From Pseudolactococcus piscium (GTDB lineage Bacteria; Bacillota; Bacilli; Lactobacillales; Streptococcaceae): a stretch of 64,000 nt of DNA. Of the stretch, positions 14,541 to 42,819 are shown piece by piece (the stretch's first letter is position 1; every line of letters starts with the position of its first letter). Under the pieces are notes generated by a model, which did not search any database, was not told the origin of the DNA, and worked only from the letters and a program-made list of their open reading frames with translations. The stretch lies in the NCBI RefSeq assembly GCF_002441695.1, contig NZ_JXJW01000008.1, forward strand, positions 1 through 64,000, in the 5' to 3' direction. The translations under genes were made by a program, and so were the position numbers.

Positions 14541-15020
14541 ATGGCTAGAGATTATATGAGTATAAGGCTTTCATATGAAGCTAAGTTTTGGTTGGAAAAA
14601 TTACAAGGTCATGTGCAACAAGTTCTAGATAAATCTATTGATGAGAAAGAAATAGATGATATGGAAATAATTTTGAAAGAATATCTTGAAAAAATTTCAG
14701 ATTCACTTGGTGGTGTCTCAATAACAAATATACTTAAAGTATCAGCTTCAAGTATAATAGAGAAAGCATATTATTACACTGAAAACTATTCACTAGAAAA
14801 ATGGTTGGAAATTGATGAATTAGTACGAAATAGTAAAATCAATTCAAATTTAGAAGTAGGAACACTTACCCCGCGTTTGTATTTAGATAAAGAAGTGATT
14901 AACGGATTAGAACAGTACAGATATGATTTTAAAAAAGATAATATGGTACGTGTCGTGAAAATGAGCTATGTGATAAAAAATGTATTGTATGCATATCATT
15001 TAGAAATATTAGGAAAGTAA
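14541..15020 (+). CDS. Unknown IME protein, 159 aa
   Basis: I do not recognise a family. The protein is mostly helical and charged, with an early segment MSIRLSYEAKFWLEKLQGHV. No membrane segment or cysteines. Good ribosome binding site AAAGGAG ten bases before ATG. First gene of the element and transcribed in the same direction as all the others, after its own promoter. Its position suggests a regulatory or accessory mobilization role, but nothing in the sequence proves this. A hairpin terminator follows at 15022-15058. Confidence 0.7.
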   Translation: MARDYMSIRLSYEAKFWLEKLQGHVQQVLDKSIDEKEIDDMEIILKEYLEKISDSLGGVSITNILKVSASSIIEKAYYYTENYSLEKWLEIDELVRNSKINSNLEVGTLTPRLYLDKEVINGLEQYRYDFKKDNMVRVVKMSYVIKNVLYAYHLEILGK

Positions 15021-15021
15021 A

Positions 15022-15058
15022 ATTATTGAAGATTCTTTTAGAGTCTTCAAATAATTTT
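15022..15058 (+). terminator. Probable terminator after the first IME gene
   Basis: TTGAAGATTC (15026-15035) pairs with GAGTCTTCAA (15041-15050) with one mismatch, followed by AATAATTTTT. Confidence 0.65.
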
Positions 15059-15068
15059 TGAATCATTT

Positions 15069-15085
15069 GTCTCGATTAGCGAGAC
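15069..15085 (+). promoter_or_regulatory. Small hairpin before the 22-aa ORF
   Basis: GTCTCG-ATTAG-CGAGAC, a perfect 6-bp stem, lies nine bases upstream of a consensus AGGAGG. The 8-mer CGAGACAA also occurs at 14506-14513 in the leader of the first IME gene (inverse of TTGTCTCG here). It may be an operator or a translation-control element. Confidence 0.4.
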
Positions 15086-15108
15086 TAATAAACTAGAGGA
15101 GGAATAAC

Positions 15109-15177
15109 ATGAAAGAACGAGTAAGGGGCTCTCCTACTGCAAAAAAATGTAGCTATGTTGCAAAATTAAAGAATTGA
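15109..15177 (+). CDS. 22-residue ORF with strong ribosome binding site
   Basis: ATG at 15109 with AGAGGAGG spaced seven bases, ending TGA at 15177. The peptide starts MKERVRGSPTAKK and ends CSYVAKLKN: basic, one cysteine, no signal sequence. The Shine-Dalgarno is the best in the element and has no other start to serve (the next gene begins at 15194, 17 bases after this stop), so it is probably translated. It could be a leader peptide coupling translation of the next gene, or a functional small protein. No known family recognised. Confidence 0.5.
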   Translation: MKERVRGSPTAKKCSYVAKLKN

Positions 15178-15193
15178 GAGGATTGAATCAGTT

Positions 15194-15769
15194 ATGAAAA
15201 ATATCAACGAATTACTATTGTTAGAAGGCATTACCTTATCAAGGTTATCGGATAGAGTGCTCAGAAAGTTACAAACATTGAGATTAGGTAAATCAGAAAG
15301 TTTTAATTTCACGAAAGATAATGTTTTAGAAATGTCTGTGCAGTATACTTTGCCAACAGCTGAGAATGTTTTAGACAATATTCTTACAGCAAGCCGCCTA
15401 TTCACAAACCAAGGGGATAGACTTTTAGACTTTATCATTTTAAAAGATGGTGATTATAGGTTCTATCCTAACATTTTTTTCTACTACACCGATAGTGAAC
15501 TAAATAATAATATTGCTTTGAAGCCAATAAAAAATGCCTTAGACGAGTTCCAGAATAATACTTCAATTAATCATAAATACTTTGCACGTATTGCTGATGA
15601 ATCAAGCATAGAAGAGATTCAAAGATTAATGCCTAAAGACTCTTATTTATTTCACAAATTAAAGAGAACATTTGCTAAATCTACTGCTACTGAGTGTAAT
15701 GTTCGATATTCTTATCTTATAAAAGTCATTGCAGGATTAAATATAATGGATAATGAGGTAGAAAAATGA
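15194..15769 (+). CDS. Unknown IME protein, 191 aa
   Basis: I do not recognise it. Soluble, mixed alpha/beta composition, starting MKNINELLLLEGITLSRLSDR. No signal or membrane segment. No strong Shine-Dalgarno (GAGAGG at 14 bases), so expression may depend on coupling to the 22-aa ORF just upstream. Its stop codon overlaps the next ATG by four bases (ATGA), so the 70-aa membrane protein is coupled to it. Always next to the FtsK-like gene in this layout, so a mobilization role is possible but unproven. Confidence 0.65.
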   Translation: MKNINELLLLEGITLSRLSDRVLRKLQTLRLGKSESFNFTKDNVLEMSVQYTLPTAENVLDNILTASRLFTNQGDRLLDFIILKDGDYRFYPNIFFYYTDSELNNNIALKPIKNALDEFQNNTSINHKYFARIADESSIEEIQRLMPKDSYLFHKLKRTFAKSTATECNVRYSYLIKVIAGLNIMDNEVEK

Positions 15770-15978
15770 AAGATATGTATCGAAACTTTTCATTTACGCT
15801 AGTACTCATTATCTCTATATTTGTAGGGTTTTCAGGAGATTTAGGAAAAATACAAGTTAAAAGATTTCTTCCTTATCTAAGTGTAAAAGCATTTTTAATA
15901 CTATCAGTTGTACTTTTAATATGCTCTTTGCCCGATATAGTTGAAATGATAATAAAATCAAGAACTAATAACAAGTGA
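15766..15978 (+). CDS. Small two-helix membrane protein of the IME
   Basis: 70 residues. Two hydrophobic segments, about residues 9-26 (FTLVLIISIFVGFSG) and 41-60 (AFLILSVVLLICSLPDIV), and a basic C-terminus. It overlaps the preceding gene and lies 25 bases before the FtsK-like gene. No family recognised. By position it may sit in the membrane with the coupling protein. Confidence 0.65.
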   Translation: MKDMYRNFSFTLVLIISIFVGFSGDLGKIQVKRFLPYLSVKAFLILSVVLLICSLPDIVEMIIKSRTNNK

Positions 15979-16003
15979 ACCTTAAAAAACTTAAAGAAAG
16001 CAG

Positions 16004-17365
16004 GTGGGCAATATCATAAGCAATAAACTAAAAAAACAAATTATCTCTATCTTTGGGCTAAAAACAGAAAACGAAATAGGAGAACTTAATATTGTAAGTT
16101 TGAGTCCAATCTTCAAATCAAAATTACCATGGTTCGTATATTTTAAAAGATTAGCTCTCTTTAGTCTTGCTGTTTTAGTATTGAGTATTTTTTTCGGTCT
16201 CAAAGGAAATTATGGCGTTGCAAATTTCATTCTTATAGTGTACTGCTTGGGAATAATGTTGACAATCCTTATTCGATTTAAAAAGAAATTTTTTCCTAAT
16301 TACCGATCATACGAACCTACTCTTCAAAAATTTATTTATCAAAATAATCTTTATGAAGAGGATAATGGGCAATTAATAAGTGAAATTCGCATGGCTTATA
16401 TTGAGGAGGAAGAAATACTAAAAGTCATTATTGAGAAGAATGGAGATTCTTACCAAAAAGTTGCGAATCAACTTCGAGAACCGCTTGAGTCTAAGCTAAG
16501 TATGTCATTATATGAAGTCAATGATACAATAGATTATGTTGAATATATCTTCATGAAATTTGATATTACACGTGAACAGGTAGTTTCTTTACCAAAAGAA
16601 GATGACAGCTTGCTTATTAAAATATATGGTGATTTTAAAGTAAGTTTGATGAACAATTACAGCATGCTGATAAGTGGCGCTAGTGGTGCAGGTAAGTCCT
16701 ACTTCACCTATTTCTATCTAACTCGATTCATTAGTCAAAAAGTGAATGGCAAACATGCTAATATTATGGCTATTGACCCTAAGCAGAGTGACCTTTATAA
16801 GCTCTTTAAGACTGTAAATATGCCTACCGAGAACTATGGAACATCGAATGCAGATGCATTTAGAATCGTAAAACATTATTTGGCTGAAATGGAGCATAGA
16901 ATGGCTCTATATGATGAAAGCTCGGCGTTTGATTCAGTTGGTATAGATATTGGTTTGGAGCCTACCCTTTTAGTGATAGAAGAGTACAGTTCGTTAGTTG
17001 CAAGTATGGACTCTAAGCAGAAAAAAGAATTTGAAAACATGGTAGCTATTATTGCCCAAAAATCCAGAAGTCTATCAATGGGAATTTTGATTGTTATGCA
17101 ACAGCCCAGGGCGGATTCTCTAAGCTCTAATATCCGTGAACAGTTGCAAAATTCTGTATTTTTAGGAAATCCAAGTAAAGAATCTGCAGGAATGATGTTT
17201 GGTACAACAGATGTTCCACACGTTCGAGGAAAAGGTGTAGGTATGTATGCTATTGAACGTAGTGCACCAAAATCATTTGAATCACCACAATTTGAGAAAA
17301 ACGTATTTGAAACGATTTTACCTGTATGGCAACATGTAGCACATTCTTATAATGAAAATCTTTAA
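16004..17365 (+). CDS. FtsK/SpoIIIE-family DNA translocase, TcpA/ConQ-like coupling protein
   Basis: 453 residues from a GTG start; AAAGAAAG lies just upstream and no later ATG would keep the membrane part. Two membrane helices near the N-terminus (about residues 47-90), then an FtsK-type motor with Walker A GASGAGKS (about 226-233) and Walker B LLVIEEYSSL. Proteins of this kind (ConQ of ICEBs1, TcpA) deliver relaxase-bound DNA to the mating channel. It sits directly before the oriT-like region and relaxase gene, the same order as conQ-nicK in ICEBs1. Carrying its own coupling protein is typical of MobT-type IMEs. Confidence 0.85.
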   Translation: MGNIISNKLKKQIISIFGLKTENEIGELNIVSLSPIFKSKLPWFVYFKRLALFSLAVLVLSIFFGLKGNYGVANFILIVYCLGIMLTILIRFKKKFFPNYRSYEPTLQKFIYQNNLYEEDNGQLISEIRMAYIEEEEILKVIIEKNGDSYQKVANQLREPLESKLSMSLYEVNDTIDYVEYIFMKFDITREQVVSLPKEDDSLLIKIYGDFKVSLMNNYSMLISGASGAGKSYFTYFYLTRFISQKVNGKHANIMAIDPKQSDLYKLFKTVNMPTENYGTSNADAFRIVKHYLAEMEHRMALYDESSAFDSVGIDIGLEPTLLVIEEYSSLVASMDSKQKKEFENMVAIIAQKSRSLSMGILIVMQQPRADSLSSNIREQLQNSVFLGNPSKESAGMMFGTTDVPHVRGKGVGMYAIERSAPKSFESPQFEKNVFETILPVWQHVAHSYNENL

Positions 17366-17712
17366 ACTAAATGAGCGTTTTGTAAATGATTAAAGCGTTC
17401 TTTGCTTTAATTATTTATGAAATGCCCTCACGAAGTCTGCCGAGTGACAAGGGCAGTCAGCTTGAAAAGCTGAAAGTGATAATATTTGTTGAAAATGAAG
17501 ATACTTTGAATGCTGATTATTTGTTGAGACATTTCTAGTTCGGCAGAAAATCTCTGATTTTCTGAGCGGGGCGGTCGAATTAGAAATAGTTTCAACGAGA
17601 AACTTCTGGCCTGCTTGTAATACCAGGCCAACAGTGACATATTTTTACGATAAAGAGCTTATATATAAAGGGTTTTAAGCTGTTTTATAAAGGCAAGAAA
17701 ATGGCTTAAAAA
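17366..17712 (+). other. Structured non-coding region, probable oriT and single-strand origin
   Basis: 347 bases with no plausible gene but several inverted repeats. GCCCT/AGGGC (17424-17428 with 17450-17454). A long imperfect pair GTTGAGACATTTCTAGTTCG/CGAATTAGAAATAGTTTCAAC (17523-17542 with 17576-17596) encloses a perfect AGAAAATC-tct-GATTTTCT hairpin (17545-17563). TGGCCTG/CAGGCCA (17607-17613 with 17624-17630). Between coupling-protein and relaxase genes is where oriT lies in ICESt3/ICEBs1-type elements, and nested hairpins of this size are typical of rolling-circle single-strand origins. The nick site cannot be named from this. Confidence 0.6.
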
Positions 17713-18774
17713 ATGAAAGGTGGTGTATTTACAATTGCAAAAGCGAAATTTGTTACTGCAAAGCTGGATTGGATAAAAATTAGGCTATGGGAACAGCCAG
17801 AAATAATAATTAATGAACTACTTGGCATTGAAATTATGGATTGTGAGCTCTCAGATGGTCAACTTAGGTTCTATGATTATGATTCTTATTACTCATATGG
17901 CTTAATTCATGTATACACTTATCGCAATGCCCTTTCTACACCAGATTGTTGCATTCAGCTAAGTGGTCAAGCGTGTACTCAACTTGAAATAATCCTAGAG
18001 AGTAAGTCATTAACTTGGGCTAAATTCTTTCAAGTAGCTTTGGAAATTTGTGAGAAAGTTGAATTTCTAAGATTAGACTGTGCTCTTGATGATAAAAACA
18101 GGGTACCATATTTTACAGTAGAAAAGTTGATTAGTAAGGCAAAGAAAAATCTTTATTGGTCAAATGGTCGTGAGTATTCAATAAATGAATCAAAATACCG
18201 CCTTACAACGGGTAAAACCTTAAATATAGGCTGTCGTACAAGCGATCTAATGTGTCGTATTTACAATAAAGCTATCGAGCAAGCTAAAATGACTGGAAAT
18301 GATATATCAGATTTTGGTAGTTGGAATAGAATTGAAATTGAATTAAAAAGAGAACCTGCAAATGATATGGCTAGAAAAATTGCTTATGAAAATGAATCAC
18401 TTGAAAATCTTATTCGGGCGGTTCTTCGCCAAGAACTTCGATTTTATACAGATAGCTCAAAAAATACAATCTGTAGGTTTTGGGATAAGTTTTTATTGAA
18501 AATATCGCCTATTAAACTGAATAGAAAATATGAAGTTACAACACTACAAAGTAGCGCCAATTGGCTTGAGGAACATGGGGGATTAGCGACATATCAAGCC
18601 TTTGTATTTTTATCAGAGAACAATGCATTAGGAAATTTAAATGATTTGAGATTTCAAAAAAAAGACTTCTCTCGTGGATTGTCTGAAAGAATGATAGCAC
18701 ATTTAGTTTCTATTGGACGAACTGACTTAATACCAGCGGTACACGCAAGAACAAAAAAGGAAAAAGAAAATTAG
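17713..18774 (+). CDS. mobT: Rep_trans-family relaxase (MobT/NicK-like)
   Basis: 353 residues resembling the replication initiation factor (Rep_trans) family used as relaxase by Tn916, ICEBs1 (NicK) and MobT IMEs. Visible family features include LSGQACTQLE, the FLRLDCALDD segment with its acidic residues, RIYNKAIEQ and the RIEIELKRE strand, part of the catalytic core. It should nick oriT and start rolling-circle transfer or replication. The ATG at 17713 has a poor ribosome site; an AAAGGTGG lies just inside, so a slightly later non-ATG start is possible. Exact catalytic tyrosine not assigned. Confidence 0.8.
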   Translation: MKGGVFTIAKAKFVTAKLDWIKIRLWEQPEIIINELLGIEIMDCELSDGQLRFYDYDSYYSYGLIHVYTYRNALSTPDCCIQLSGQACTQLEIILESKSLTWAKFFQVALEICEKVEFLRLDCALDDKNRVPYFTVEKLISKAKKNLYWSNGREYSINESKYRLTTGKTLNIGCRTSDLMCRIYNKAIEQAKMTGNDISDFGSWNRIEIELKREPANDMARKIAYENESLENLIRAVLRQELRFYTDSSKNTICRFWDKFLLKISPIKLNRKYEVTTLQSSANWLEEHGGLATYQAFVFLSENNALGNLNDLRFQKKDFSRGLSERMIAHLVSIGRTDLIPAVHARTKKEKEN

Positions 18775-18791
18775 ATTAAGAGAGGATGTTC

Positions 18792-18995
18792 ATGGTTACA
18801 ATAACAAAATATGATTTGATAGAATTAGGTTATGGAACAAGTCAATCTGCCGATATTATCAGACGTGCCAAATGTTTAATGGTTGAAAAAGGTTTTGCTT
18901 ATTATTGTTCTAAGAGGTTGGCTAGAGTTCCAGTATCAGCAGTTGAGGAAATTTTAGGAATAAATCTTGAAATTGGAGAAAAGGTGAATGCCTAA
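18792..18995 (+). CDS. xis: Small excisionase-type protein (DUF3173-like)
   Basis: 67 residues. The frame also has an ATG at 18786, but AGAGG touches it; the ATG at 18792 is six bases from AGAGG and fits better. The sequence (YDLIELGYGTSQSADIIRRAK, then VPVSAVEEILG) looks like the winged-helix DUF3173 proteins that sit before tyrosine integrases in streptococcal mobile elements and act as excisionase or directionality factor. It overlaps the integrase start by eight bases. Confidence 0.75.
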   Translation: MVTITKYDLIELGYGTSQSADIIRRAKCLMVEKGFAYYCSKRLARVPVSAVEEILGINLEIGEKVNA

Positions 18996-20175
18996 GATTG
19001 CAAATGTTTATCAAGATAAGAAAAATGGGAAATGGTACTTTGTAGCAAGCTTAGGGTTTGACGAAAAAGGAAAACGAGTCCAGCATTGGGAACGTGGTTT
19101 TTCAACACAAAAGGAAGCCAAATCTGCTTACGATGATTATATGAATGATTATTCTAAAACGGCTATCAAGAAAAATAGTTCAATGAGTTATCAAGAATTT
19201 TATTCAACTTACTTTGAACCAGACTATAAACGTTCTGTTAAAAAGCGAACCTATGATAACCGAGTTTCGTCCATGAGAATTCATTTAGCCTATTTTTACA
19301 AAAGAAAGTTAAAAGAGATCAGCCCACCAATGATAAAAAAATTTCAAAATATTTTATCTGAAAAATATTCTAGTGCTTATATTAGGAATATCTACGGTTT
19401 ATTCCAGATGAGTTTGGACTTAGCTGTAAAATTAGGCTTGTTACAGACAAACGTGGCTAAGCAAGTTGGAAATGTTAAAAAGACTAAAAAAAAGGTTGAG
19501 TTTTGGACTCAATCCGAATTTGAAAAAGTAATAGCAACATTTGATATTTCTGAGTACTATCAGCATTATTCATTTATACTTATCTGGTTGCTGTTCATGA
19601 CAGGTTTACGTTTTGGTGAAGCACAAGCGTTAGAATGGGATAAAGACATTGATTTTGAAAAAAAGACCTTACGTGTTAATAAATCCATGTACTATAAAAA
19701 TGCAGAAGAATATTATATTACCGAGCCTAAAACAAGTGCCAGTAACAGAACAATTGCGTTAGACGGTGATACGATAAAGTATTTAAAGAATTGGAAAATA
19801 GCACAAGAAAATTGTGGTGGTTCAAAATGGATTCTTTCTTACAATGGATTGCCCACAAATAAAAGTGCACCCTATCACATTATTCAAAGACATTCGGAGC
19901 TTGCAGGTATTCATAAGATAAAAACACATGCTCTACGTCATAGCCACGCTTCACTATTAATATCATTGGGAGAAAATGCTATTGTAGTACGTGATAGGCT
20001 AGGTCATGAAGACATCAAGACAACTTTAGGAACGTACGGACACCTATATCCAAATACCAATATAGAGGTCGCTAACAGGCTTGTAGGGCTTATAAATGTA
20101 GAGGTGAATGAAAAGGCAATAAAAGAAACAAAAAAATTTAGCGGAAACCAGTATATCAAGAAAGAAGGAATATAA
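18988..20175 (+). CDS. int: Tyrosine recombinase (integrase)
   Basis: 395 residues, the usual length for Tn916-type integrases. N-terminal arm-binding domain (KKNGKWYFVASLGFDEKGKR, about residues 9-28), SAM-like core-binding domain to about 165, then the catalytic domain with Arg in TGLRFGEAQAL, the HALRHSHASLL motif, LGHEDIKTTLGTYGHL and its nucleophilic Tyr. It should catalyse insertion at and excision from the guaA 3' end. GGAG precedes the ATG. Confidence 0.95.
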   Translation: MPKIANVYQDKKNGKWYFVASLGFDEKGKRVQHWERGFSTQKEAKSAYDDYMNDYSKTAIKKNSSMSYQEFYSTYFEPDYKRSVKKRTYDNRVSSMRIHLAYFYKRKLKEISPPMIKKFQNILSEKYSSAYIRNIYGLFQMSLDLAVKLGLLQTNVAKQVGNVKKTKKKVEFWTQSEFEKVIATFDISEYYQHYSFILIWLLFMTGLRFGEAQALEWDKDIDFEKKTLRVNKSMYYKNAEEYYITEPKTSASNRTIALDGDTIKYLKNWKIAQENCGGSKWILSYNGLPTNKSAPYHIIQRHSELAGIHKIKTHALRHSHASLLISLGENAIVVRDRLGHEDIKTTLGTYGHLYPNTNIEVANRLVGLINVEVNEKAIKETKKFSGNQYIKKEGI

Positions 20176-20177
20176 AA

Positions 20178-20549
20178 ATGGCAAAATTATTAAGCGTTAG
20201 AGATTGGGATTTTAACAATATAGGGAATGTTTTCGAATTAGATGAAGTCACACCAGTTTTTGAACAAGAACATAGAGCAGATGAAAATGGCGAAATTATC
20301 AAAGACAGAGAAGGAAAACCAAGAAATTTTGCGACAGATAGAATCATAGGACAAAACTATTCTGTTACAATTTTAGATGGGAAATTTAAGAAGAAAAGCA
20401 CACAAATTAAAATACTAGACCCTAAGGCTTTAATCACAAATGATGATATTATGAAAAAGGATTCTGTTAAGGTCACATTTGTTAACTTAGAATGTAGTAT
20501 GCAAGGCAATCCTATGTATTATCGAGCTGAAAAAATTGAGTTTGTATAA
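20178..20549 (+). CDS. Unknown IME protein, 123 aa
   Basis: Not recognised with certainty. Soluble, beta-rich and charged, ending in VKVTFVNLECSMQG and a terminal strand AEKIEFV. The layout of strands loosely recalls DUF961 proteins (YdcP/HelP, helicase processivity factors of ICEs), but I would not assign it on that. It starts two bases after the integrase stop, so it is in the same transcript, and its stop shares a base with the next ATG. Genes between int and the attachment site are an unusual cargo position. Confidence 0.65.
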   Translation: MAKLLSVRDWDFNNIGNVFELDEVTPVFEQEHRADENGEIIKDREGKPRNFATDRIIGQNYSVTILDGKFKKKSTQIKILDPKALITNDDIMKKDSVKVTFVNLECSMQGNPMYYRAEKIEFV

Positions 20550-20938
20550 TGAATATTGATACTATTGCTTTTTTGCATGAACCATCAATTGGAATTTTGT
20601 ATTTAAATAATTCTAAACCAATGTTGGTACGAGAACAATTTACTAAGGAAAGCTTGGTATATTCAAGAATCGAGGAAATGAAAGAAACTGGGTTCGATTA
20701 TGCTTATATGAATGATTTTTTGGTTATAGAAGATACCGCAAAGAAACGACCTATCTATGAATGCATGGTAGGAGATTTACTATTAAGTACACAAGGAGAT
20801 TTCATTGCATTCTTTCATGCAGAAATAAAAAATCATATATGGCTAGCAAGCGGTTTGACATTACCTAATATGGTATACTTAGAACGACATTTAATTACAA
20901 TACCTAGACCCCCAAAAAAATTAAGAGTCTTGGACTAG
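20549..20938 (+). CDS. Unknown IME protein, 129 aa
   Basis: No family recognised. Starts MNIDTIAFLHEPSIGILYLNN; predominantly beta strands with one central MNDFLVIEDTAKK segment; no membrane helix. Overlaps the previous stop by one base (TAATG), so the two are translationally coupled and probably act together. Last gene of the element, 110 bases from the right attachment repeat. Confidence 0.65.
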   Translation: MNIDTIAFLHEPSIGILYLNNSKPMLVREQFTKESLVYSRIEEMKETGFDYAYMNDFLVIEDTAKKRPIYECMVGDLLLSTQGDFIAFFHAEIKNHIWLASGLTLPNMVYLERHLITIPRPPKKLRVLD

Positions 20939-33426: not shown

Positions 33427-36400
33427 TTACAACTTACCTTTTTTTGCCAAAACTAAGCCAAAACCAGCAAGTGTGAGCATGACGAACCCAATGAGATAAT
33501 ATAGATGATTAATTATCTCAGATGTTTTCGGTAATTGATTGTCGTTAGGTTTGTTAGGTGTAGTTGGTGGCTTAACATAAGTGTTTGTCAAGTTATAGCC
33601 ATTAACTGCCATCACATATCCCTTAACTGCATCTTCTGAAATCGTGTAAACAATTGTCGAACCTGCGTCAAATTTTGGTAAATTAGCGAAAGTATAGGTC
33701 CAATTATCTTGAGCCGTTACAACTTTTGAAGTAATAGGTGTTCCGTTAGCAAATAAATTAACAGTGATTTTATCTGGACGGATACCATACTGATTATTAT
33801 TATCAGCCCAAGTCTTCGTACCACTGACTACTGTTAATTCAGGCGTATGGGTATTCGTCAGGTCGTTACCGTTAATCGTTGTGTCATAACCTGCTATTTT
33901 TTCTTCAGAAATTGTATAGACGATTACTTTACCCGCCGCAAATTTTGACAGATTAGCAAAGTTGTATTTCCAATCATCTTTAGCAGCTACGTCTTGCGTC
34001 ATAACTGTTTTACCATCTGCTAGTAAGTTAACGGTGATTTTATCTGGACGAATGCCATCTTGGTTATTATTATCTGACCAAGTCTTCGTACCACTGACTG
34101 CTGTTAATTCCGGCGTATGGGTATTCGTCAGATCATTGCCATTAACGGTCATGTCATAGCCTACAACAGCTTGCTCTGATATCGTATAGCTAATTGCTTG
34201 ACCAGCTTCAAATTTAGGTAAGTTAGCAAATGAGTATGTCCAGTTACTTTCAGCTGTCACGTCTTCAGAAGCAACTTGTTTCCCATTTGCAAGCAGGTTA
34301 ACGGTAATACTGTTTGGTCGAATACCATCTTGGTTGTTACTATCTTCCCAAGTCTTTGTCCCCGTAACACTTGTCAATTCAGGAGCATGTGTATTTGTCA
34401 GGTCTTTGCCTGTAACAGTCATATCATAGCCTGTAACAGATTCTTCTGAAACGGTATATATAATTTCCTTACCAGCTTCAAACTTAGGTAAGTTGATAAA
34501 TGTATACTGCCAGTTATCCGTACTTTTTACTTCTTTAAAACTTACTTTTACACCATTTGCAAGTAAATTAACAGTAATACTGTTTGGTCGGATACCATCT
34601 TGGTTGTTATTATCGTTCCAAGTCTTGATCCCACTGAATTCTGAGGTTTCTGGCGTATGTGTATTTGTGATATTGTAACCTTGAATACTTTGGTCATATC
34701 CTGCAACTGTTTCTTCAGAAATTGTATAATTAATGGCTTTACCAGACACATATTGTGGAAAATTTGTAAATGAATATGCCCAGTTAGTTGCAGCTGTCAC
34801 AACTTGTTCGGCTACCTTTTCACCATCTGCTAGTAAATTAACGGTAATGCTATCGGGTCTGACACCATCTTGGTTGTCATTATCATCCCAAGTCTTTGTA
34901 CCGATAAACTGTTTTAGTAGCGGTCTATGTGTATTTGTAATGATGACATTGTTTTTATCAGTGTCATTAACATCTGCTTTATAACCTGCTACATTACCAA
35001 CTTCTTTAACCTGATAGTTAATTGCTTGTCCATTAGCATTTAAATCTAGATTAGTGAACGTTGTTTGCCAATTATTTTCTGCATTCAAGGTTACAGGATC
35101 ACCACTAGGGTTATCATTAGCATATAATTGAACTTGAATATTTGTTGGACGCATGCCATCTTGGTCATTATTATCTTCCCAAGACTTGGTTACTGCAATA
35201 CTCGTTTTGGCAGGTGTATAACTATTAGTGATATTATAGCCATCAATCTTTGCACTATATTTATCAACGCTATTCTCGGTCACCTTATATTCGATAGCCT
35301 TACCATCTTTAAACTTGTTAAGATTATCAAATGAATAGGCCCAATTATCTGTAGCAGATACTGTTTTAGTCTGAACTTGTACATTATTGGCTAACAAATT
35401 CACAGTAATATTATCTGGGCGAATGCCATCCTGATTAACTTTATCATCCCAAGTTTTACTTCCCTTAACTGAGATAACCTCTAAGATACGTGAGTTAACA
35501 ATTTTCACATTGCTCAAATCAGTTTGATCAATATTAGATTTATAAGAGCGTACAGTATCTTCTGAAACAGTATATTTGATTGGTGTACCATCATCATGGT
35601 ATTTAACTAATCCATCAAAGCTAAAAGCCCAATTTAAAGCTTGTGTTACAGTTTTTGATTGACTGAATGTACCGTCTGCTAAAAGGTTAACTGTAATTGA
35701 TGCTGGTCTTAACCCTTCTATATTGTTATTATCATCCCATGATTTTAGACCTTTAACACTCGTCTTGGTTTTCTCATTTGTTTGTGTTAATTGTATGTTA
35801 CTATTGGCATCAGCTTGACTAGCTTTGAGTGTTATTTTTTTTCCTACAGCCAAATCTGCTGGTATATCATAGCCAGCAATTGTTGTTGTTTCAACAAGGA
35901 AGTAGTCTCCACCTTTAAGATTTCCCCAGGAAAGTTGCCCTTTATCATCTGTAGTTCCTGATCTTAATAAACCGCCCTTATTGCCATTACTAGAGGCATA
36001 TAACTCAAATTTAACACCTGGAAGGACTTTTGACGTATTATCTTGATCTACTTTAGTGATAACTAAGTTGATATTTTTAGAAGACGATGAACCACTGTTA
36101 TTAACAACTTTTACACCTTGAGTGGTCCCATTATCAACTGTTTTTTGCCCAGTTCCCTTTACATTAACTGAATTGGTCAGTGTGTCATTTACTAATGATG
36201 AGTTGATAAACGCACGATACTGAATTAAATATGCTGTATCAATTGTGTGTAAGAACTTGATGACTAAGACTTGTTCACCAGTGGTTGAATTTGTTTGAAG
36301 ATCAACAGAATAGTCAGCATCTTTTACAAGTATTTTCTTTTGATCTTGTGAAACTGTACCGTTTTGTGCAACTGTACTGCCATACACAACGATAGAGTCT

Positions 36401-39267
36401 GCGATTACTGTTTGGTTTGATGATGGCTTGTCAGTAATTACAACATCTTTCAAGGTAGATTGTGCCTTGTTCACCCATACATTCCAAACAGCAAGTGAGG
36501 CATCCGATGGGTCTTGTTGTCCAGTTTTCTCTATTGAATTGCCGCCATTATTAACTGATACAGTACCGTTAGCTAGATTTGACTTGTTATTGTTGACATA
36601 AGTTGCGGTGTTTTGATAGTCTTTTTTATCAATAACCTTATTAACTAATGACGTATCAAATTTTAATACGTATGCAGATTTTGATCCTTCAGGCAAGTTC
36701 ACACTAACCGTCTTTGTCGTAGCATCATAAGTAGGTGTTACGCCATCTACCTTAACAAGATTAACAACATCCCCAGCCTTATTGATTGTGCCAGAGTATA
36801 AAATGGCACTCCCAGCAACGTAATCCTGATCATCTTGTATAGGATCCGTGATGGATGCACCTATCAATGAACGCTGATTTAAGTTTGTATAAATAGACCA
36901 TGAGATGTTTTTATTTACTGCATTATAACTACCTGATTTACTACTATCTGATATATAATCAGCTCGAGGTTTAAAATCACCTGAAGCATTATTGGTATGG
37001 TTTGTGTTGAACTTGTCCGTCCATGTCATGGTAGCATTATTGGTCCATTTACTTGCATTCCCTATTTTCTGGGTCTCAAATGAAGTATTAAAAGTTAACA
37101 CATACCAATTACTAGCCTTTACTTTTAAATCCCCTAAAAATGCTACCTTAAATCCCTTATCAGTATCAGTAATAGTATAGTCTGTACCAAGTTTAAGCGG
37201 TGCGTTACTATCTCTAAATTTGAAAGCTATAGACGTTTTATCTACTGTTAAACCGTCAGGTATGACTTCATCTAGAGACCAATTGGTCATATCTTGACGT
37301 GCTGGGTTGACATCTAATCGCCAAGTTGCCGTTCTATTTGCATAATCAGTATCAATAACATATTTGTATAAACCTTGTGGGGCAACTGAACCAGACCCAA
37401 CTGTGACTGTTTTATTATTACTAGTTGCCGTATTATTTAGATTTGTTGAGCCATTATCGTTAAGTGGTGTCGTTACTTGCGATTTGTAGCTAACCTTAAC
37501 TTTCTGGTTTAGTCCATTAGGGAAAGTTACAGTCATTTGTTTGTTGTCAGATGAATACGCAATAGTATAAAGAGACTTATCAAGTACCTTACCCGATGTA
37601 TCCGTTAATACTGGACTACCAGAGAAAATTTGGTCCCCATCTAACGTATCGACTATTGTTGTTCCTGCTGGTAAAGTTTTCTCACCGGCATTATAGTCAA
37701 TATGCCAAAAATAGACTTGAGAACCATTCGTATCATTACCATCAAAAGTTTTAGCAAGTAATTTACCATATATTGCTGTTACTTGTGCACTGGCGGTTGC
37801 TACCTTATCTCCATTAACCAAAGTAGCCGTATTTTTGAAATTAATATTACCGCCATCATCAGGTTTTTTGTCTTGACTGATAGTCGTAGTATAAGCAACT
37901 TTAAATGCCTTATACGTATCTGCGTAATTACCAATAAAACTGATCGTGCCATTAGCATCTACTGTATAATCTGTTCCAGCAACTAGCGGTTGTCCAGTAG
38001 CTGTAACAGTTCCTTTGGTATCAATGGTTAACGGATAAACGATAGCACTTTTATAAATATTACCATCTGGCAATGCATCTGAAACTTTTGCATTGACCAA
38101 ATGACTGCCACTTGTATTAACAGTTACATCCCAGAAAACTTGATTTGGATTATTCGCTTTATCAAGTCTCCCTGCTTTTGAAATGTCATTCCCACCGTTT
38201 GGTTTGATGACAATGTTAGCTTTTACTTCACCATCTTTAGTTGGAATGTCAATAGTCGTAGGTCCAGGACTATTCGTTTTATCCAAGGATTGACTAAATG
38301 AAAGTGAGCCATTAATATCAGATTGATTCTCAACATTTTTAAATGTTAATTTAACAGTGCCATCTGAATTAACGAGGAAGTCGCCATATTCACCTGCAGA
38401 ATAATTACCAGGTACATATGCTAATTTCGGTGGTAAACTGAATACAAAATAATCACCATTTTTTAGCACGTAGTTATCTTTTAACTGATCAGGAATCGAC
38501 CAGTTATACTTTAAATTAATTTTACCATCTGCAGGGAAGTTATCAGCACTTACCTCTTTACCAGTACTATCCTGAAACTTCAGGTCAACACTATCAAAGA
38601 TAGTCCCATTTGCTGCATCTGGTAGATAAGTTGTGATGTCATTAGGTGTTGGTGCAACATCATTAAGTCTAGCTGTTGTCGTCTTTTTTTCTTTAACAGT
38701 TGCGTTATTAGCATCTTCCTTACTACTGTTGCTTGCTGTTGAACTAGCAGGAATTGATGACTCAGTACTTTTAGCCGAAGACTCTGGCACAGTTGAACTT
38801 TTCTCTGGTAACTGGGTGATACTACTTAAGTCCAGAGTCGTCTTGCTATCTCCACTGCTAAGTTCAACAGAGTCAATCCCTTTCAAACTTGCTTTATCAA
38901 GTTTGATACTAAGATTATTTTCTTCTTTGCTAGTATTTGGTGCTATTGTAGCTTCAAATACTTGGCTATTCAACTTATATTGATTTTTAGAAGCTGTTGT
39001 TTGATTTAAGATTTCCTTAATCATAACAGACTTGTTACTAAACTCAATGTTAGTTTGCTTAGCTTGCTCTGTAGCGTTGTTAGCAGTTACTTTAAGATCA
39101 ACTGTTACAGTTTGATCATCTTCTTTGCTAACGTTCGCTGTATTCAGCGTAATCAAATCATTTTTTTCATCTAATGTATTAGCAACTGCTAAAATCGGTG
39201 ATACATATTGTAACAATATAATCACCGTCATCAAAATAAAAATACCATTTTTCGATAATTTTTTCAT
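33427..39267 (-). CDS. Giant sortase-anchored adhesin with CnaB repeats
   Basis: About 1946 residues. Signal peptide MKKLSKNGIFILMTVIILL with cleavage after ILAVA. A Ser/Thr-rich stretch (about 160-200) precedes Sdr/Cna-type adhesive domains (IFDSVDLKFQDSTG, then several isopeptide-like Ig domains, about 200-1060). One SpaA-type domain follows (VDQDNTSKVLPGVKFELY), then eight CnaB repeats (KTWDDNNNQDGIRPxxITVNLLA, about 1170-1890). It ends LPKTS, a hydrophobic helix and KKGKL. The frame has an earlier ATG at 39285; neither start has a good ribosome site, and MKKLSKN fits a signal peptide better. Surface adhesin; ligand unknown. LPKTS differs from the usual LPxTG. Confidence 0.88.
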   Translation of the reverse strand: MKKLSKNGIFILMTVIILLQYVSPILAVANTLDEKNDLITLNTANVSKEDDQTVTVDLKVTANNATEQAKQTNIEFSNKSVMIKEILNQTTASKNQYKLNSQVFEATIAPNTSKEENNLSIKLDKASLKGIDSVELSSGDSKTTLDLSSITQLPEKSSTVPESSAKSTESSIPASSTASNSSKEDANNATVKEKKTTTARLNDVAPTPNDITTYLPDAANGTIFDSVDLKFQDSTGKEVSADNFPADGKINLKYNWSIPDQLKDNYVLKNGDYFVFSLPPKLAYVPGNYSAGEYGDFLVNSDGTVKLTFKNVENQSDINGSLSFSQSLDKTNSPGPTTIDIPTKDGEVKANIVIKPNGGNDISKAGRLDKANNPNQVFWDVTVNTSGSHLVNAKVSDALPDGNIYKSAIVYPLTIDTKGTVTATGQPLVAGTDYTVDANGTISFIGNYADTYKAFKVAYTTTISQDKKPDDGGNINFKNTATLVNGDKVATASAQVTAIYGKLLAKTFDGNDTNGSQVYFWHIDYNAGEKTLPAGTTIVDTLDGDQIFSGSPVLTDTSGKVLDKSLYTIAYSSDNKQMTVTFPNGLNQKVKVSYKSQVTTPLNDNGSTNLNNTATSNNKTVTVGSGSVAPQGLYKYVIDTDYANRTATWRLDVNPARQDMTNWSLDEVIPDGLTVDKTSIAFKFRDSNAPLKLGTDYTITDTDKGFKVAFLGDLKVKASNWYVLTFNTSFETQKIGNASKWTNNATMTWTDKFNTNHTNNASGDFKPRADYISDSSKSGSYNAVNKNISWSIYTNLNQRSLIGASITDPIQDDQDYVAGSAILYSGTINKAGDVVNLVKVDGVTPTYDATTKTVSVNLPEGSKSAYVLKFDTSLVNKVIDKKDYQNTATYVNNNKSNLANGTVSVNNGGNSIEKTGQQDPSDASLAVWNVWVNKAQSTLKDVVITDKPSSNQTVIADSIVVYGSTVAQNGTVSQDQKKILVKDADYSVDLQTNSTTGEQVLVIKFLHTIDTAYLIQYRAFINSSLVNDTLTNSVNVKGTGQKTVDNGTTQGVKVVNNSGSSSSKNINLVITKVDQDNTSKVLPGVKFELYASSNGNKGGLLRSGTTDDKGQLSWGNLKGGDYFLVETTTIAGYDIPADLAVGKKITLKASQADANSNIQLTQTNEKTKTSVKGLKSWDDNNNIEGLRPASITVNLLADGTFSQSKTVTQALNWAFSFDGLVKYHDDGTPIKYTVSEDTVRSYKSNIDQTDLSNVKIVNSRILEVISVKGSKTWDDKVNQDGIRPDNITVNLLANNVQVQTKTVSATDNWAYSFDNLNKFKDGKAIEYKVTENSVDKYSAKIDGYNITNSYTPAKTSIAVTKSWEDNNDQDGMRPTNIQVQLYANDNPSGDPVTLNAENNWQTTFTNLDLNANGQAINYQVKEVGNVAGYKADVNDTDKNNVIITNTHRPLLKQFIGTKTWDDNDNQDGVRPDSITVNLLADGEKVAEQVVTAATNWAYSFTNFPQYVSGKAINYTISEETVAGYDQSIQGYNITNTHTPETSEFSGIKTWNDNNNQDGIRPNSITVNLLANGVKVSFKEVKSTDNWQYTFINLPKFEAGKEIIYTVSEESVTGYDMTVTGKDLTNTHAPELTSVTGTKTWEDSNNQDGIRPNSITVNLLANGKQVASEDVTAESNWTYSFANLPKFEAGQAISYTISEQAVVGYDMTVNGNDLTNTHTPELTAVSGTKTWSDNNNQDGIRPDKITVNLLADGKTVMTQDVAAKDDWKYNFANLSKFAAGKVIVYTISEEKIAGYDTTINGNDLTNTHTPELTVVSGTKTWADNNNQYGIRPDKITVNLFANGTPITSKVVTAQDNWTYTFANLPKFDAGSTIVYTISEDAVKGYVMAVNGYNLTNTYVKPPTTPNKPNDNQLPKTSEIINHLYYLIGFVMLTLAGFGLVLAKKGKL
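33600..35780 (-). repeat. Eight CnaB-repeat units
   Basis: The KTW-DDN motif returns with its coding start near 33820, 34090, 34360, 34630, 34900, 35190, 35460 and 35750. Six of the steps are about 270 bp (90 residues), the others near 290. Sequence between units is highly alike, so copy number may vary between strains. Confidence 0.85.
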
Positions 39268-39322
39268 AAAATATATCCATTCCATTAAATTTTCATAAGC
39301 TCGTAAGCTAGTAGTGAAGTTG

Positions 39323-39376
39323 CTAAATGTAACCAGTACCAGATAAAAAGTGATACTTTATATTTAATTTTTCCAT
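39323..39376 (-). CDS. 17-aa upstream ORF in the adhesin leader
   Basis: ATG at 39376 with AAAGGAG nine bases upstream; peptide MEKLNIKYHFLSGTGYI and TAG. It has the only consensus ribosome site in the adhesin leader and ends 55 bases before the adhesin start. It could be a regulatory leader peptide; no homology is known to me. Confidence 0.4.
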   Translation of the reverse strand: MEKLNIKYHFLSGTGYI

Positions 39377-39408
39377 ATAACTTTACTCCTTTATTATTTA
39401 TATATTCC

Positions 39409-39462
39409 TGAATAGTTATAAGGTTATATACATACGCATATATATATGCTTATAACTATTCA
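39409..39462. promoter_or_regulatory. 54-bp dyad upstream of the adhesin
   Basis: TGAATAGTTATAAG (39409-39422) and CTTATAACTATTCA (39449-39462) are perfect 14-bp inverted arms; between them is the palindrome GCATATATATATGC (39436-39449). It stands where the adhesin promoter should be, so operator or promoter structure is likely; not a normal terminator. Confidence 0.55.
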
Positions 39463-39858
39463 TAAAACGCTTTTTTTAATCATACTATCTAGATACCTAT
39501 GCGATATTGATACACATATAAAACTTAGGCATCAATAAAACCCAATCTAATTTGAAAACGTATTAATTTATAAAATCATAGCGATTAAATTCATTTAATT
39601 ATAGAAAATAGGTTATAAAATAAAGCATACACATCTAAAACAACGAAAAAGATATAGGATAAAAAATTGCTAGACCTACTACTTTCTATGTTGCAAACGT
39701 AACTTAACATAACTTTAATTTTAAAAAGACATCTTTAAGGAAAATCTTAATTTTTTCGAAAGATAAATAGGTTAAAAGTCATATAGTTACTGGGTTTAAA
39801 TGGTATATGCTTGGTTATATATAATGCAATACAATTCTAACTAAATGCTCATAATGTC

Positions 39859-39960
39859 TTGAAAAACAAATAGAAATAAGCTATAATTGTGGTGTTAATA
39901 CTATTAAACAATCATGAGACTACGAAAAATTAAGATTTTTCGTAGTCTCATGATTTAATT
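39859..39960 (+). ncRNA. Candidate small RNA: promoter plus perfect 21-bp hairpin
   Basis: TTGAAA (39859-39864), exactly 17 bp, TATAAT (39882-39887), a near-consensus promoter. The start site would fall near 39894. Sixteen bases later comes a perfect 21-bp inverted repeat (39910-39930 with 39935-39955) with a TAAG loop; arms begin AATCATGAGACTACG. No start codon or ribosome site is associated. The downstream T-run is poor; a weaker hairpin with TTTATTTTA follows near 40014-40040 and could end the RNA. A small structured RNA is inference; a mobile-element relic is the alternative. Confidence 0.45.
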
Positions 39961-40276
39961 CTTTAGACGCTTAATAACAAATTAATTAAGTTAAAAATAT
40001 ATAAAACAAAAAAAGAAGCCGAGTAGACCTCTTTATTTTATAATCTCTTTGATAAATCCTTAACTACCAAGTTTTATTAATAAAACAACCATCTATTGAA
40101 TTAACACTGCTTCTCCCTTATTTCAAAGACTATTTTAAAGGTATAAACAACAAAATCAAGGTAATCAAGTGCTGTGCATTTAAATTTAGGACATTTAGAA
40201 ACATCAAAAAAGGATCCTTTTAATGAACATTGTTTTGATCGATAAAAAAATAAGCACCTGAGTACTTGCCATATAG

Positions 40277-40312
40277 TCTTTAGGTATTTCCCACATCATT
40301 TGACAAAGGGCC
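40277..40312 (-). repeat. Dispersed repeat, copy D (diverged)
   Basis: Minus strand starts GGCCCTTTGTCAAATGATG then TGGGAAATACCTAAA. It is a looser match to copies A-C. Confidence 0.4.
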
Positions 40313-40317
40313 AAAAT

Positions 40318-40346
40318 AAAAAAGAAGTCTGGCCGACTTCTTTTTT
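40318..40346. terminator. parC terminator, bidirectional
   Basis: AAAAAAGAAGTC-tggcc-GACTTCTTTTTT, a perfect 12-bp stem with T-runs on both strands. Confidence 0.92.
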
Positions 40347-40371
40347 ATTTTATATCGTTTTTCACTAAATA

Positions 40372-42819
40372 CTATTTGATCTTAGATGACTTAACGCCAA
40401 GTTCTTTTGCCTCATCAAAGATAAATGAGCCATTTGATGTACGTTCTAGAATATTCAAATCTGGCAAGTTAATTTCAAATAAGGTCTCCGTGTTAGAGAT
40501 AACTTGTAAGACTTGCATTTCCTGATCGGCTTCTGCAAATAAGTCACCACCGTACCTATTTTTGATTGTGCCTGAGCTTACGACCTTGTGAGGCGCTTTT
40601 TTAAGTTCACGCAAAATTTGCAAGCCACGACCTGCACGACTTTTAGCAGGTAGGTCACTAAATTTAACGCGTTTTAGGGCACCGCGTTGTGTGAGGACAT
40701 AGAATGAATCAGTACTGACAAAATAACTTGCGACGATAAAATCGGCATCCTTCAAATTCATTGCTTTAACACCTGCTGCCTTAGGGCCGACAAGCGGTAC
40801 ATCTGTTGATGGGAACCTAAGGGCATAGCCATTATAGGTCACAAGCATGATATCTAAGTTCTGAGCAAACTCTAAGCCAATGACAACATCATCTGCCTGT
40901 TTAAACTTGGCAAATTGCAGTGATTTCGATCGATACGTTCGCCATGGTTTAAAGTCAGACAGTTGCACTTGCTTAATCAAGCCAAACTTGGTCGTGATTA
41001 GTAACTGACTCGTGACTGTCTCAAAATCATCTAAAATATAAGCAAATAAAATCGCTTCATCTTGAGAAAAATTATTGACTAAAGAGGAACAATGCGTCCC
41101 AATATCTTTCCATTTGACATCATCTAGTTCATGAATAGGGCGATAAATCACGTTACCTAGTGTTGTGAACATGAGTAAATGCTGGGTTGTCAAAGCAGGC
41201 TGATGAAACAGCAAGACGTCATCTTCACGTTTCCCAATCTCAGTTAGTTTAGAGGCACCAAAACTTCTTGGTGTCGTCCGTTTCACATAACCAGAACGTG
41301 TCACACTGACGATGGTTTCTTCTTTGACGATGAGTGATGCTGCTTCGACTTCTATCGTCACAACCTCATCTACTAAGACACTTTTGCGCGGTTGATCAAA
41401 TTTCTTTTTAACTTCACGCAATTCACGTTTCATGACATTAAACATCGTTTTTTCATCATTAATGATGGCAGACAAGGTCAAAATCCGTTCTTTTAATTCG
41501 GCTTCTTCATTTTGTAAAGTGACAACATCTGTATTGGTCAGACGATAAAGTTGTAAGGTAACGATGGCTTCTGCCTGTGCTTCACTGAAGTCGTAAGATG
41601 CCATCAGATTTTCTCTGGCATCAGCCTTATTATCACTGGCACGGATTAGGGCGATGACTTCATCCAAAATACTCAGTACGCGAATCAAGCCCTCAACGAT
41701 ATGCAAGCGTTTCTCAGCCTTTTCACGATCAAATATCGACCGTGATCTGATGATTTCTCTTTTATGTTGGATATAGCTAGATAAAATTGGGATAATGCCG
41801 ACCTGTTGCGGTGTCGCATGGTCGATTGCCACCATATTAAAATTATAGTTGACTTGTAAATCTGTATATTTTAAAAGATAGTTCAAGATCAGCTCAGCAT
41901 CAGCATCTTTTTTAAGTTCAATTGCGATGCGCAGACCATCACGGTCAGATTCATCACGCACTTCTGCGATACCAGCTACTTTTGCATTCACACGAACATC
42001 ATCGATTTTTTTAACTAATGTTGCTTTGTTTAACTCATAGGGAATCTCAGTGACAACAATCTCTTTTTTGCCACCTTTAAGCTCCTCGATTGCTGTCTTC
42101 GAACGGACAACAACCTTACCCTTACCCGTTTCATAAGCTCTTTTGATCTCAGATTTCCCTTGGATGATTGCACCAGTTGGAAAATCGGGACCAGGTAAGA
42201 AGTCCATTAATTTATCAACTTTTGCTGTCGGATGATCGATCATATAAACTGTCGCATCGATCACTTCCCCTAAATTATGTGTGGGGATGTCAGTCGCATA
42301 GCCTGCTGAAATACCAGTAGAGCCATTGACCAATAAATTTGGAAAACTTGCCGGTAAAACAGTCGGTTCTTTTTCTGTATCATCAAAATTCCAGGCGAAT
42401 GGGACTGTATTTTTATCGATATCTTGTAATAAATAGGTCGAAATTTCAGATAGGCGTGCCTCGGTATACCGCATTGCAGCTGGTGGATCACCATCCATAG
42501 ACCCGTTATTCCCGTGCATTTCAACGAGAACTTGCCCCATCTTCCAGTCCTGTGATAGGCGGACCATGGCATCATAAATCGAACTATCACCGTGTGGATG
42601 GTAGTTACCCATAATATTACCGACTGACTTGGCCGACTTACGATACCCTTTTTCAAAGGTATTACCATCCTTGTTCATCGAATAGAGAATGCGACGTTGC
42701 ACAGGTTTTAAGCCATCACGAATATCAGGTAATGCCCGCTCCTGAATGATATACTTTGAATAGCGACCAAAACGGTCACCCATAATTTCTTCTAAAGAGA
42801 GTTTTTGTACATTGCTCAT
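40372..42819 (-). CDS. parC: DNA topoisomerase IV subunit A
   Basis: 815 residues, right for streptococcal ParC. Winged-helix start, active-site Tyr in AAMRYTEARLS (about 118), QRRILYSMNKDG and HPHGDSSIYDAMVR motifs, and the C-terminal beta-pinwheel. It decatenates daughter chromosomes with ParE. The quinolone-region serine and aspartate are in GDSSIYD. It is separated from parE by ktrBA, not adjacent as usual. Confidence 0.97.
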   Translation of the reverse strand: MSNVQKLSLEEIMGDRFGRYSKYIIQERALPDIRDGLKPVQRRILYSMNKDGNTFEKGYRKSAKSVGNIMGNYHPHGDSSIYDAMVRLSQDWKMGQVLVEMHGNNGSMDGDPPAAMRYTEARLSEISTYLLQDIDKNTVPFAWNFDDTEKEPTVLPASFPNLLVNGSTGISAGYATDIPTHNLGEVIDATVYMIDHPTAKVDKLMDFLPGPDFPTGAIIQGKSEIKRAYETGKGKVVVRSKTAIEELKGGKKEIVVTEIPYELNKATLVKKIDDVRVNAKVAGIAEVRDESDRDGLRIAIELKKDADAELILNYLLKYTDLQVNYNFNMVAIDHATPQQVGIIPILSSYIQHKREIIRSRSIFDREKAEKRLHIVEGLIRVLSILDEVIALIRASDNKADARENLMASYDFSEAQAEAIVTLQLYRLTNTDVVTLQNEEAELKERILTLSAIINDEKTMFNVMKRELREVKKKFDQPRKSVLVDEVVTIEVEAASLIVKEETIVSVTRSGYVKRTTPRSFGASKLTEIGKREDDVLLFHQPALTTQHLLMFTTLGNVIYRPIHELDDVKWKDIGTHCSSLVNNFSQDEAILFAYILDDFETVTSQLLITTKFGLIKQVQLSDFKPWRTYRSKSLQFAKFKQADDVVIGLEFAQNLDIMLVTYNGYALRFPSTDVPLVGPKAAGVKAMNLKDADFIVASYFVSTDSFYVLTQRGALKRVKFSDLPAKSRAGRGLQILRELKKAPHKVVSSGTIKNRYGGDLFAEADQEMQVLQVISNTETLFEINLPDLNILERTSNGSFIFDEAKELGVKSSKIK

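Follow-up and report, generated by a model that had tools for sequence, protein, structure and literature searches.

A putative invertible promoter between inverted dif-like sites upstream of a surface adhesin gene in Pseudolactococcus piscium

Analysis of a 64,000-nucleotide stretch of the Pseudolactococcus piscium genome (hereafter the window) led to a strong promoter and a long perfect hairpin established between parC and the gene of a large surface adhesin, both of which lie on the minus strand. On balance, we lean toward the reading that the hairpin is one of two inverted Xer/dif-type sites bracketing a strong promoter in front of the adhesin gene, and that the whole forms an on/off switch now in the OFF state rather than a stand-alone small RNA (sRNA) gene. 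The two sites are called R (at the hairpin) and L (its inverted partner), and G010 designates a relative of the same genus. The features of the region are:

33427..39285, minus strand: surface adhesin of 1952 aa with Cna_B, Collagen_bind and SpaA domains; proposed switched gene
39323..39376, minus strand: conserved 17-codon ORF (MEKLNIKYHFLSGTGYI) in the adhesin leader, with GGAG upstream
39583..39625, minus strand: conserved island with a TATAAT-like -10 in the adhesin direction but, by eye, lacking a good -35; may be a weak or activated promoter of the adhesin
39733..39762, minus strand: site L, inverted partner of R, sharing its spacer TTAAGA (39750-39745); highest-ranking dif-like site in the window, conserved in G010
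39763..39917, no strand: 155-bp segment between the sites, predicted to be invertible
39859..39887, plus strand: promoter TTGAAA-17-TATAAT within the L-R segment, pointing away from the adhesin (OFF); conserved in G010
39894..39966, plus strand: predicted short OFF transcript, start and end deduced from promoter and hairpin
39910..39955, plus strand: perfect 21-bp hairpin with a 4-nt loop, made up of R and its arm extensions; predicted to terminate the OFF transcript
39918..39947, plus strand: site R, a 12-nt arm, the spacer TTAAGA (39930-39935) and a 12-nt arm; dif-like site and core of the hairpin, 21 nt identical in Lactococcus plasmids
40372-42819, minus strand: parC

Promoter, hairpin and the inverted partner

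The promoter matches the sigma-A consensus at 11 of 12 positions. Four such sites occur in the 64 kb and none reaches 12/12, in agreement with the first-pass annotation, which had ranked it close to the best of the window. It is also first among the 32 promoter-like sites of the 36-44 kb interval, a total which is itself at chance level (shuffles 30.6, sd 4.8). That no gene follows it also holds, as no plus-strand ORF of at least 40 aa starts between the promoter and 40371. What follows, as described earlier, is a loop of 4 nt between two 21-nt arms that pair perfectly, and the stem is indeed of unusual length: it is the longest perfect hairpin of the window (loops of 3-9 nt; runners-up of 17 and 11 bp), and the longest one in 20 Markov-1 sequences of the same size did not exceed 12 bp (same loops). 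The RNA fold of 39890-39990 has a z of -8.34, with none of 200 shuffles equally good. In a consensus scan the hairpin appears as an intrinsic terminator, a stem followed by a T tract that is moderate in the window and longer in G010. Co-regulation with the EPS operon through a similar promoter was considered and set aside, the match in the own genome (E-value = 9e-4) being no better than promoters of other genomes (by eye those of atp and rfbA genes; E-values = 2.8e-4 and 8e-4). The match of the EPS promoter in G010 is better (E-value = 7e-8) and keeps such co-regulation possible.

Promoter and hairpin are present together in two of 295 genomes of the family, the own genome (G000) and G010, which are also the only two carriers among the 12 genomes of the genus (own included). 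G010 carries the element at the equivalent position, with parC on one side and, on the other, an adhesin copy that appears as broken ORFs. Both carriers are in the OFF orientation (2/2), and no flipped copy was found among them. Aligned in windows of 30 columns, G000 and G010 reach an identity of 0.87-1.0 across the promoter and hairpin (39827-39957) and of 0.87-0.97 across site L (39717-39777), with 0.60-0.80 between these two islands and 0.33-0.70 over 39613-39737; two more conserved islands are 39583-39625 and the 17-codon ORF at 39323-39376. The latter ORF has a ribosome-binding site, is near-identical in G010 and possibly encodes a leader peptide. One base pair of the hairpin differs between the two genomes, by a compensatory change. 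The promoter and the hairpin are real, conserved in a relative of the same genus and far beyond chance.

A third example was detected in another genus (G069), where an inverted partner of 21 bp lies 178 bp from AGACTCCGAAAAATTAAGATTTTTCGGAGTCT and the genes of an HTH protein and a MucBP surface protein follow. Its hairpin (AAGACTCCGAAAAATTAAGATTTTTCGGAGTCTT, then TTTTG...) comes after a gene that by eye is kdpC-like, and aligns to that of the window with compensatory changes. The covariation proposed as a check is present: among the three sequences, both partners are changed in 4 of 21 pairs, 98.4% of the cells are paired versus 41-51% when slid, and the score was reached by 3 of 500 shuffles. 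The hairpin therefore looks selected from the compensatory changes between relatives, as had been supposed. A strict pattern of the hairpin core with CTACG arms gave no match in the collected genome contigs, from which close relatives are possibly absent; the arm of G069 reads CTCCG.

The repeat at 39741-39755, inverted relative to 39925-39939, had been overlooked at first. L and R share an exact identity of 15 nt in inverted orientation with 169 bp between the repeats (14 nt and 171 bp in G010), and their arms differ outside these 15 nt. Of 5000 Markov simulations, 2 produced a match of at least 15 nt to R within the 624 bp upstream. Among 40 distinct perfect hairpins (stem of at least 11), three, namely those of the window, G010 and G069, have a copy of at least 14 nt at 40-450 bp, in a set of loci that is not a random sample, many having been fetched for their likeness to this region. 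The core 18-mer is no commoner in G000 than its reversed control (2+2 versus 2+3 matches at up to 2 mismatches), so that nearness and conservation, not rarity alone, favor L. Inverted repeats thus flank a promoter upstream of a gene.

A search for the arm sequence at other loci, also proposed before, returned, with up to 3 mismatches allowed, a single place in the own genome, the two arms of the hairpin itself. A copy of an IS or MITE, the end of which had been named as a possible identity of the hairpin, was dropped as an explanation, since the hairpin is single copy in the own genome and the ISL3 match at 40062-40322 is separate from it. This ISL3 match is the only one of the whole intergenic region against plasmids (E-value threshold of 1e-5) and lies outside the hairpin; against phages the region gave no match at the same threshold, and two viral scans found nothing. 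Concerning the wider locus, 40062-40322 matches ISL3-family transposase genes of Lactococcus plasmids and is located beside the parC terminator, which seems duplicated (40012-40050 decayed, 40313-40351 intact). The interval after parC is variable within the genus: it holds the adhesin in G000, G010 and G001 and a pilus-type gene in G008, and an lspA-like gene directly follows parC in G007, G009, G011 and G006. Farther away, 14541-20938 holds genes for a tyrosine integrase (18988-20175), a rolling-circle initiator of the Rep_trans type and an FtsK-like ATPase next to a guaA-like gene, and is likely a mobile element that has integrated.

Likeness to plasmid sites and difSL

A 32-nt query of R against plasmids (E-value up to 1) matched 43 records, 41 of them from Lactococcus and 39 at an identity of at least 99%; those listed (10 of 43) are 21-22 nt long with E-values from 0.06 and are singly weak. 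The same query against phages gave 19 weak records (E-value about 1), mostly of Enterococcus and Bacillus phages, which we took as chance. The plasmid site opens a block matched in 166 records, all of Lactococcus, at 178 places, and in 37 of the 40 rows listed the matching stretch has its start at the site or slightly within it. Judging from the sequence, this conserved block likely starts at a plasmid Xer resolution site. Fourteen plasmid loci were fetched; in these the site lies between listed genes, with no recombinase gene listed beside it in a plasmid gene table that is incomplete. Nine sites were aligned and have conserved 12-nt arms (such as TTTCCGAAAAA and TTTTTC) around a variable 6-bp spacer (TTAAGA and TTTTTG twice each; TTTAGA, TTGCTG, TTTGAA, TTGTTG and TTAGTC). 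Conserved arms and a variable spacer are also ascribed to pdif Xer sites in PMC13141974.

An arms-only matrix was built from seven of these sites with the spacer masked, the two with a TTAAGA spacer being left out deliberately. Scanning of the 64 kb on both strands placed L first (18.6) and R second (14.4), followed by a site at 14.0; the chromosomal difSL scores 16.4, between L and R. The maxima of 12 random Markov sequences of 64 kb, one strand each, range from 9.0 to 14.3, so R at 14.4 is not significant alone while L is, and the case rests on the pair. Similarly, 588 kb of overlapping loci contain 15 distinct sites scoring at least 13, and three unrelated ones (15.5, 14.9 and 14.6) exceed R. 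The pair, however, unites the two highest-scoring sites of the window: 155 bp separate them, they have the same register and spacer but opposite orientations, and they enclose the promoter. Single dif-like sites scoring 20-21 by the plasmid matrix were observed in loci of G009, G003 and the own genome, one of them near an exopolysaccharide-type chain-length gene and one near a contig end.

The difSL next to xerS (ATCTTTCCGAAAAACTATAATTTTCTTGACAA) has arms similar to those of the plasmid sites. Both G000 and G010 carry xerS with an adjacent difSL, the neighboring protein matching XerS (NF003462) in each, and in G010 about 127 kb separates xerS from the sites. L agrees with difSL at 23 of 32 positions, the best match in the window, although 23 is also reached by one of 30 random windows and by other loci that had been chosen for the R core. 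With the XerS/difSL system of streptococci and lactococci the sites share arm-like CTTTC.GAAAA and TTTTC motifs and a dyad about a short spacer. The difference is that difSL adjoins xerS, whereas L and R form an inverted pair with the spacer TTAAGA, flanking a promoter elsewhere. By sequence, both have the two dyad arms, the short spacer and the likeness to known sites that characterize Xer/dif sites, R marginally.

Two dyads with a common core near the upstream region of the adhesin, one of them a terminator-like stem in the consensus scan, might instead be a plain terminator or protein-binding palindrome, with L and R acting as two operators of one regulator and no recombination. We regard this as improbable, since an asymmetric spacer that is identical in inverted orientation is not required of operators, and the plasmid sites keep their arms and vary their spacer like recombination sites.

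The predicted switch and the small RNA alternative

The first-pass annotation had proposed a candidate small RNA. A short transcript from the promoter to the hairpin is still predicted, and a stand-alone gene for an RNA of roughly 60-70 nt, terminated by the hairpin and with a trans-acting role (its target being, for instance, a protein or the adhesin mRNA), would agree with the strong promoter, the conserved 5' leader (TGTGGTGTTAATACTATTAAA), the T-rich tail (better in G010), the drop of conservation after the hairpin and the compensatory pairs. Such a gene, however, leaves unexplained the inverted partner L with its identical 6-bp spacer, the likeness to difSL and to the plasmid core and the pair in G069, and the finding of L is what set this reading back as first choice. 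Moreover, Rfam gave no match at the gathering threshold in the whole window. By inspection, L in the adhesin strand has the same sense as R in its own, so simple antisense pairing with the adhesin leader looks weak, and that variant was rejected. Overall, we consider a stand-alone sRNA gene unlikely.

In the switch that we favor, recombination between L and R would invert the 155-bp segment with its promoter, most likely through XerS, a housekeeping tyrosine recombinase that would act in trans. In the OFF state the promoter is directed away from the adhesin, and its transcript would end after about 70 nt at R, the arms of which may have grown into a perfect terminator stem, making R a recombination site and a terminator together. 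In the ON state the promoter would read through a hybrid site without the stem into the adhesin leader. The sites, their likeness to known ones, their orientation and conservation and the direction of the promoter belong to the observed part of this scheme, as does the predicted loss of the hairpin: after inversion in silico the promoter faces the adhesin, and the fold energy of the 97 nt at the start of the transcript weakens to -4.9 kcal/mol in the window (-29.9 before) and to -10.9 kcal/mol in G010 (-28.2 before). As the hairpin is dissolved in the inverted form, R would terminate in the OFF state only. A recombination site that doubles as a terminator is a better account of the hairpin than an sRNA gene. 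The long arms of R co-vary across the point that inversion would split, which suggests that OFF is a long-lived state or that the switch is locked. That inversion occurs, that XerS performs it and that adhesin expression follows it are the steps that we infer.

Concerning the enzyme, there is no ORF of at least 40 aa between the adhesin and parC, hence no dedicated recombinase gene adjoining the sites. For the recombinase of the pilus switches of relatives (see below), neither G000 nor G010 gave a match at an E-value of 1e-10, and the one of G003 and G008 was accordingly ruled out as the enzyme of L and R. G000 has a further stand-alone tyrosine recombinase of 296 aa, and G010 lists none of similar size except XerS. 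Against the switch counts that recombination by XerS needs FtsK at the septum, as stated in PMC5357621, and so does the distance of the sites from xerS in G010. In 39286-39960 no promoter facing the adhesin reaches 10/12 and two reach 9/12; the conserved -10-like island at 39583-39625 could nevertheless be the adhesin's own promoter, which would also count against the switch, as do the broken ORFs of the adhesin in G010. Among the matches listed from the open-licence PMC literature there was neither a promoter inversion driven by XerS nor such a switch in Lactococcus. A wider proposal, that lactococci use XerS through inverted pairs of plasmid-type dif sites as a general inversion switch for surface proteins, with one site turned into the terminator of the OFF promoter, is possible but doubtful.

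Comparison with known switches and implications

The pdif/dif modules of Acinetobacter likewise have Xer sites in inverse orientation whose 6-bp spacers are identical, and PMC13141974 reports that inverted pdif pairs with such spacers invert. Those, however, are XerC/XerD sites of plasmids that bound genes, whereas here the arms are XerS-like, the location is chromosomal and only a promoter is enclosed. A comparable module, a segment with inverted dif-like sites that moves between replicons and has no regulatory role, could account for the site core common to Lactococcus plasmids and for G067, where the orthologous place of the G069 locus has a single site and neither the segment nor a surface protein. 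Yet the segment contains a conserved promoter and no ORF of at least 40 aa, and its place and spacing are kept in G000 and G010 (169 and 171 bp between the repeats); a mobile module of this kind thus seems improbable.

Closer to the proposed inversion is the SZO08560 locus of Streptococcus zooepidemicus, described in PMC2654543 as a short promoter segment between inverted repeats upstream of an LPXTG surface protein. Its repeats are GTAGACTTTA, a recombinase gene is adjacent and flipped reads were seen, whereas L and R are known from assemblies and have no adjacent recombinase. Clostridioides difficile cwpV has 21-bp imperfect inverted repeats 195 bp apart, and in its OFF orientation an intrinsic terminator was proposed at the repeat junction (PMC2784873). 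There the promoter is outside the segment, while here it is inside, as in fimS and the S. zooepidemicus switch. In Mycoplasma agalactiae, Vpma switching requires a putative recombinase, Xer1 (PMC2268961).

Within the family, 4 of 295 genomes (G003, G008, G016 and G041; E-value up to 1e-60) have, beside a surface gene, inverted repeats of 20-32 bp that lie 1402-2194 bp apart and enclose a tyrosine recombinase; the element is apparently an invertible pilus switch. The surface gene encodes a tip pilin carrying VWA and SpaA domains in G003 and a DUF285/LRR protein in G016; that of G041 is a fragment without Pfam match, and the genes of G041 and G008 were assigned as the like gene by their N-terminus. 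By eye, the candidate promoter faces away from the surface gene in G003, G008 and G016 and toward it in G041, and recombinase and pilin are co-directed in G003 and G008 and divergent in G041. The switch of G008 lies at the parC locus, like the element of the window, and its recombinase gene has an in-frame stop. With L and R these switches share a candidate promoter facing an inverted-repeat site and an adjoining surface gene, but they bear their own recombinase between the repeats and another site sequence. Because site sequence and recombinase differ and the latter has no match in G000 and G010, they stand as an analogy and not as proof.

If the switch exists as proposed, the housekeeping recombinase of streptococci and lactococci would also be an enzyme of phase variation, and further switches could be found through inverted dif-like pairs with identical spacers, without a neighboring recombinase gene. 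The analysis also indicates a likely Xer site in a block common to many Lactococcus plasmids, and it makes a simple PCR test of adhesin phase variation available in these bacteria.
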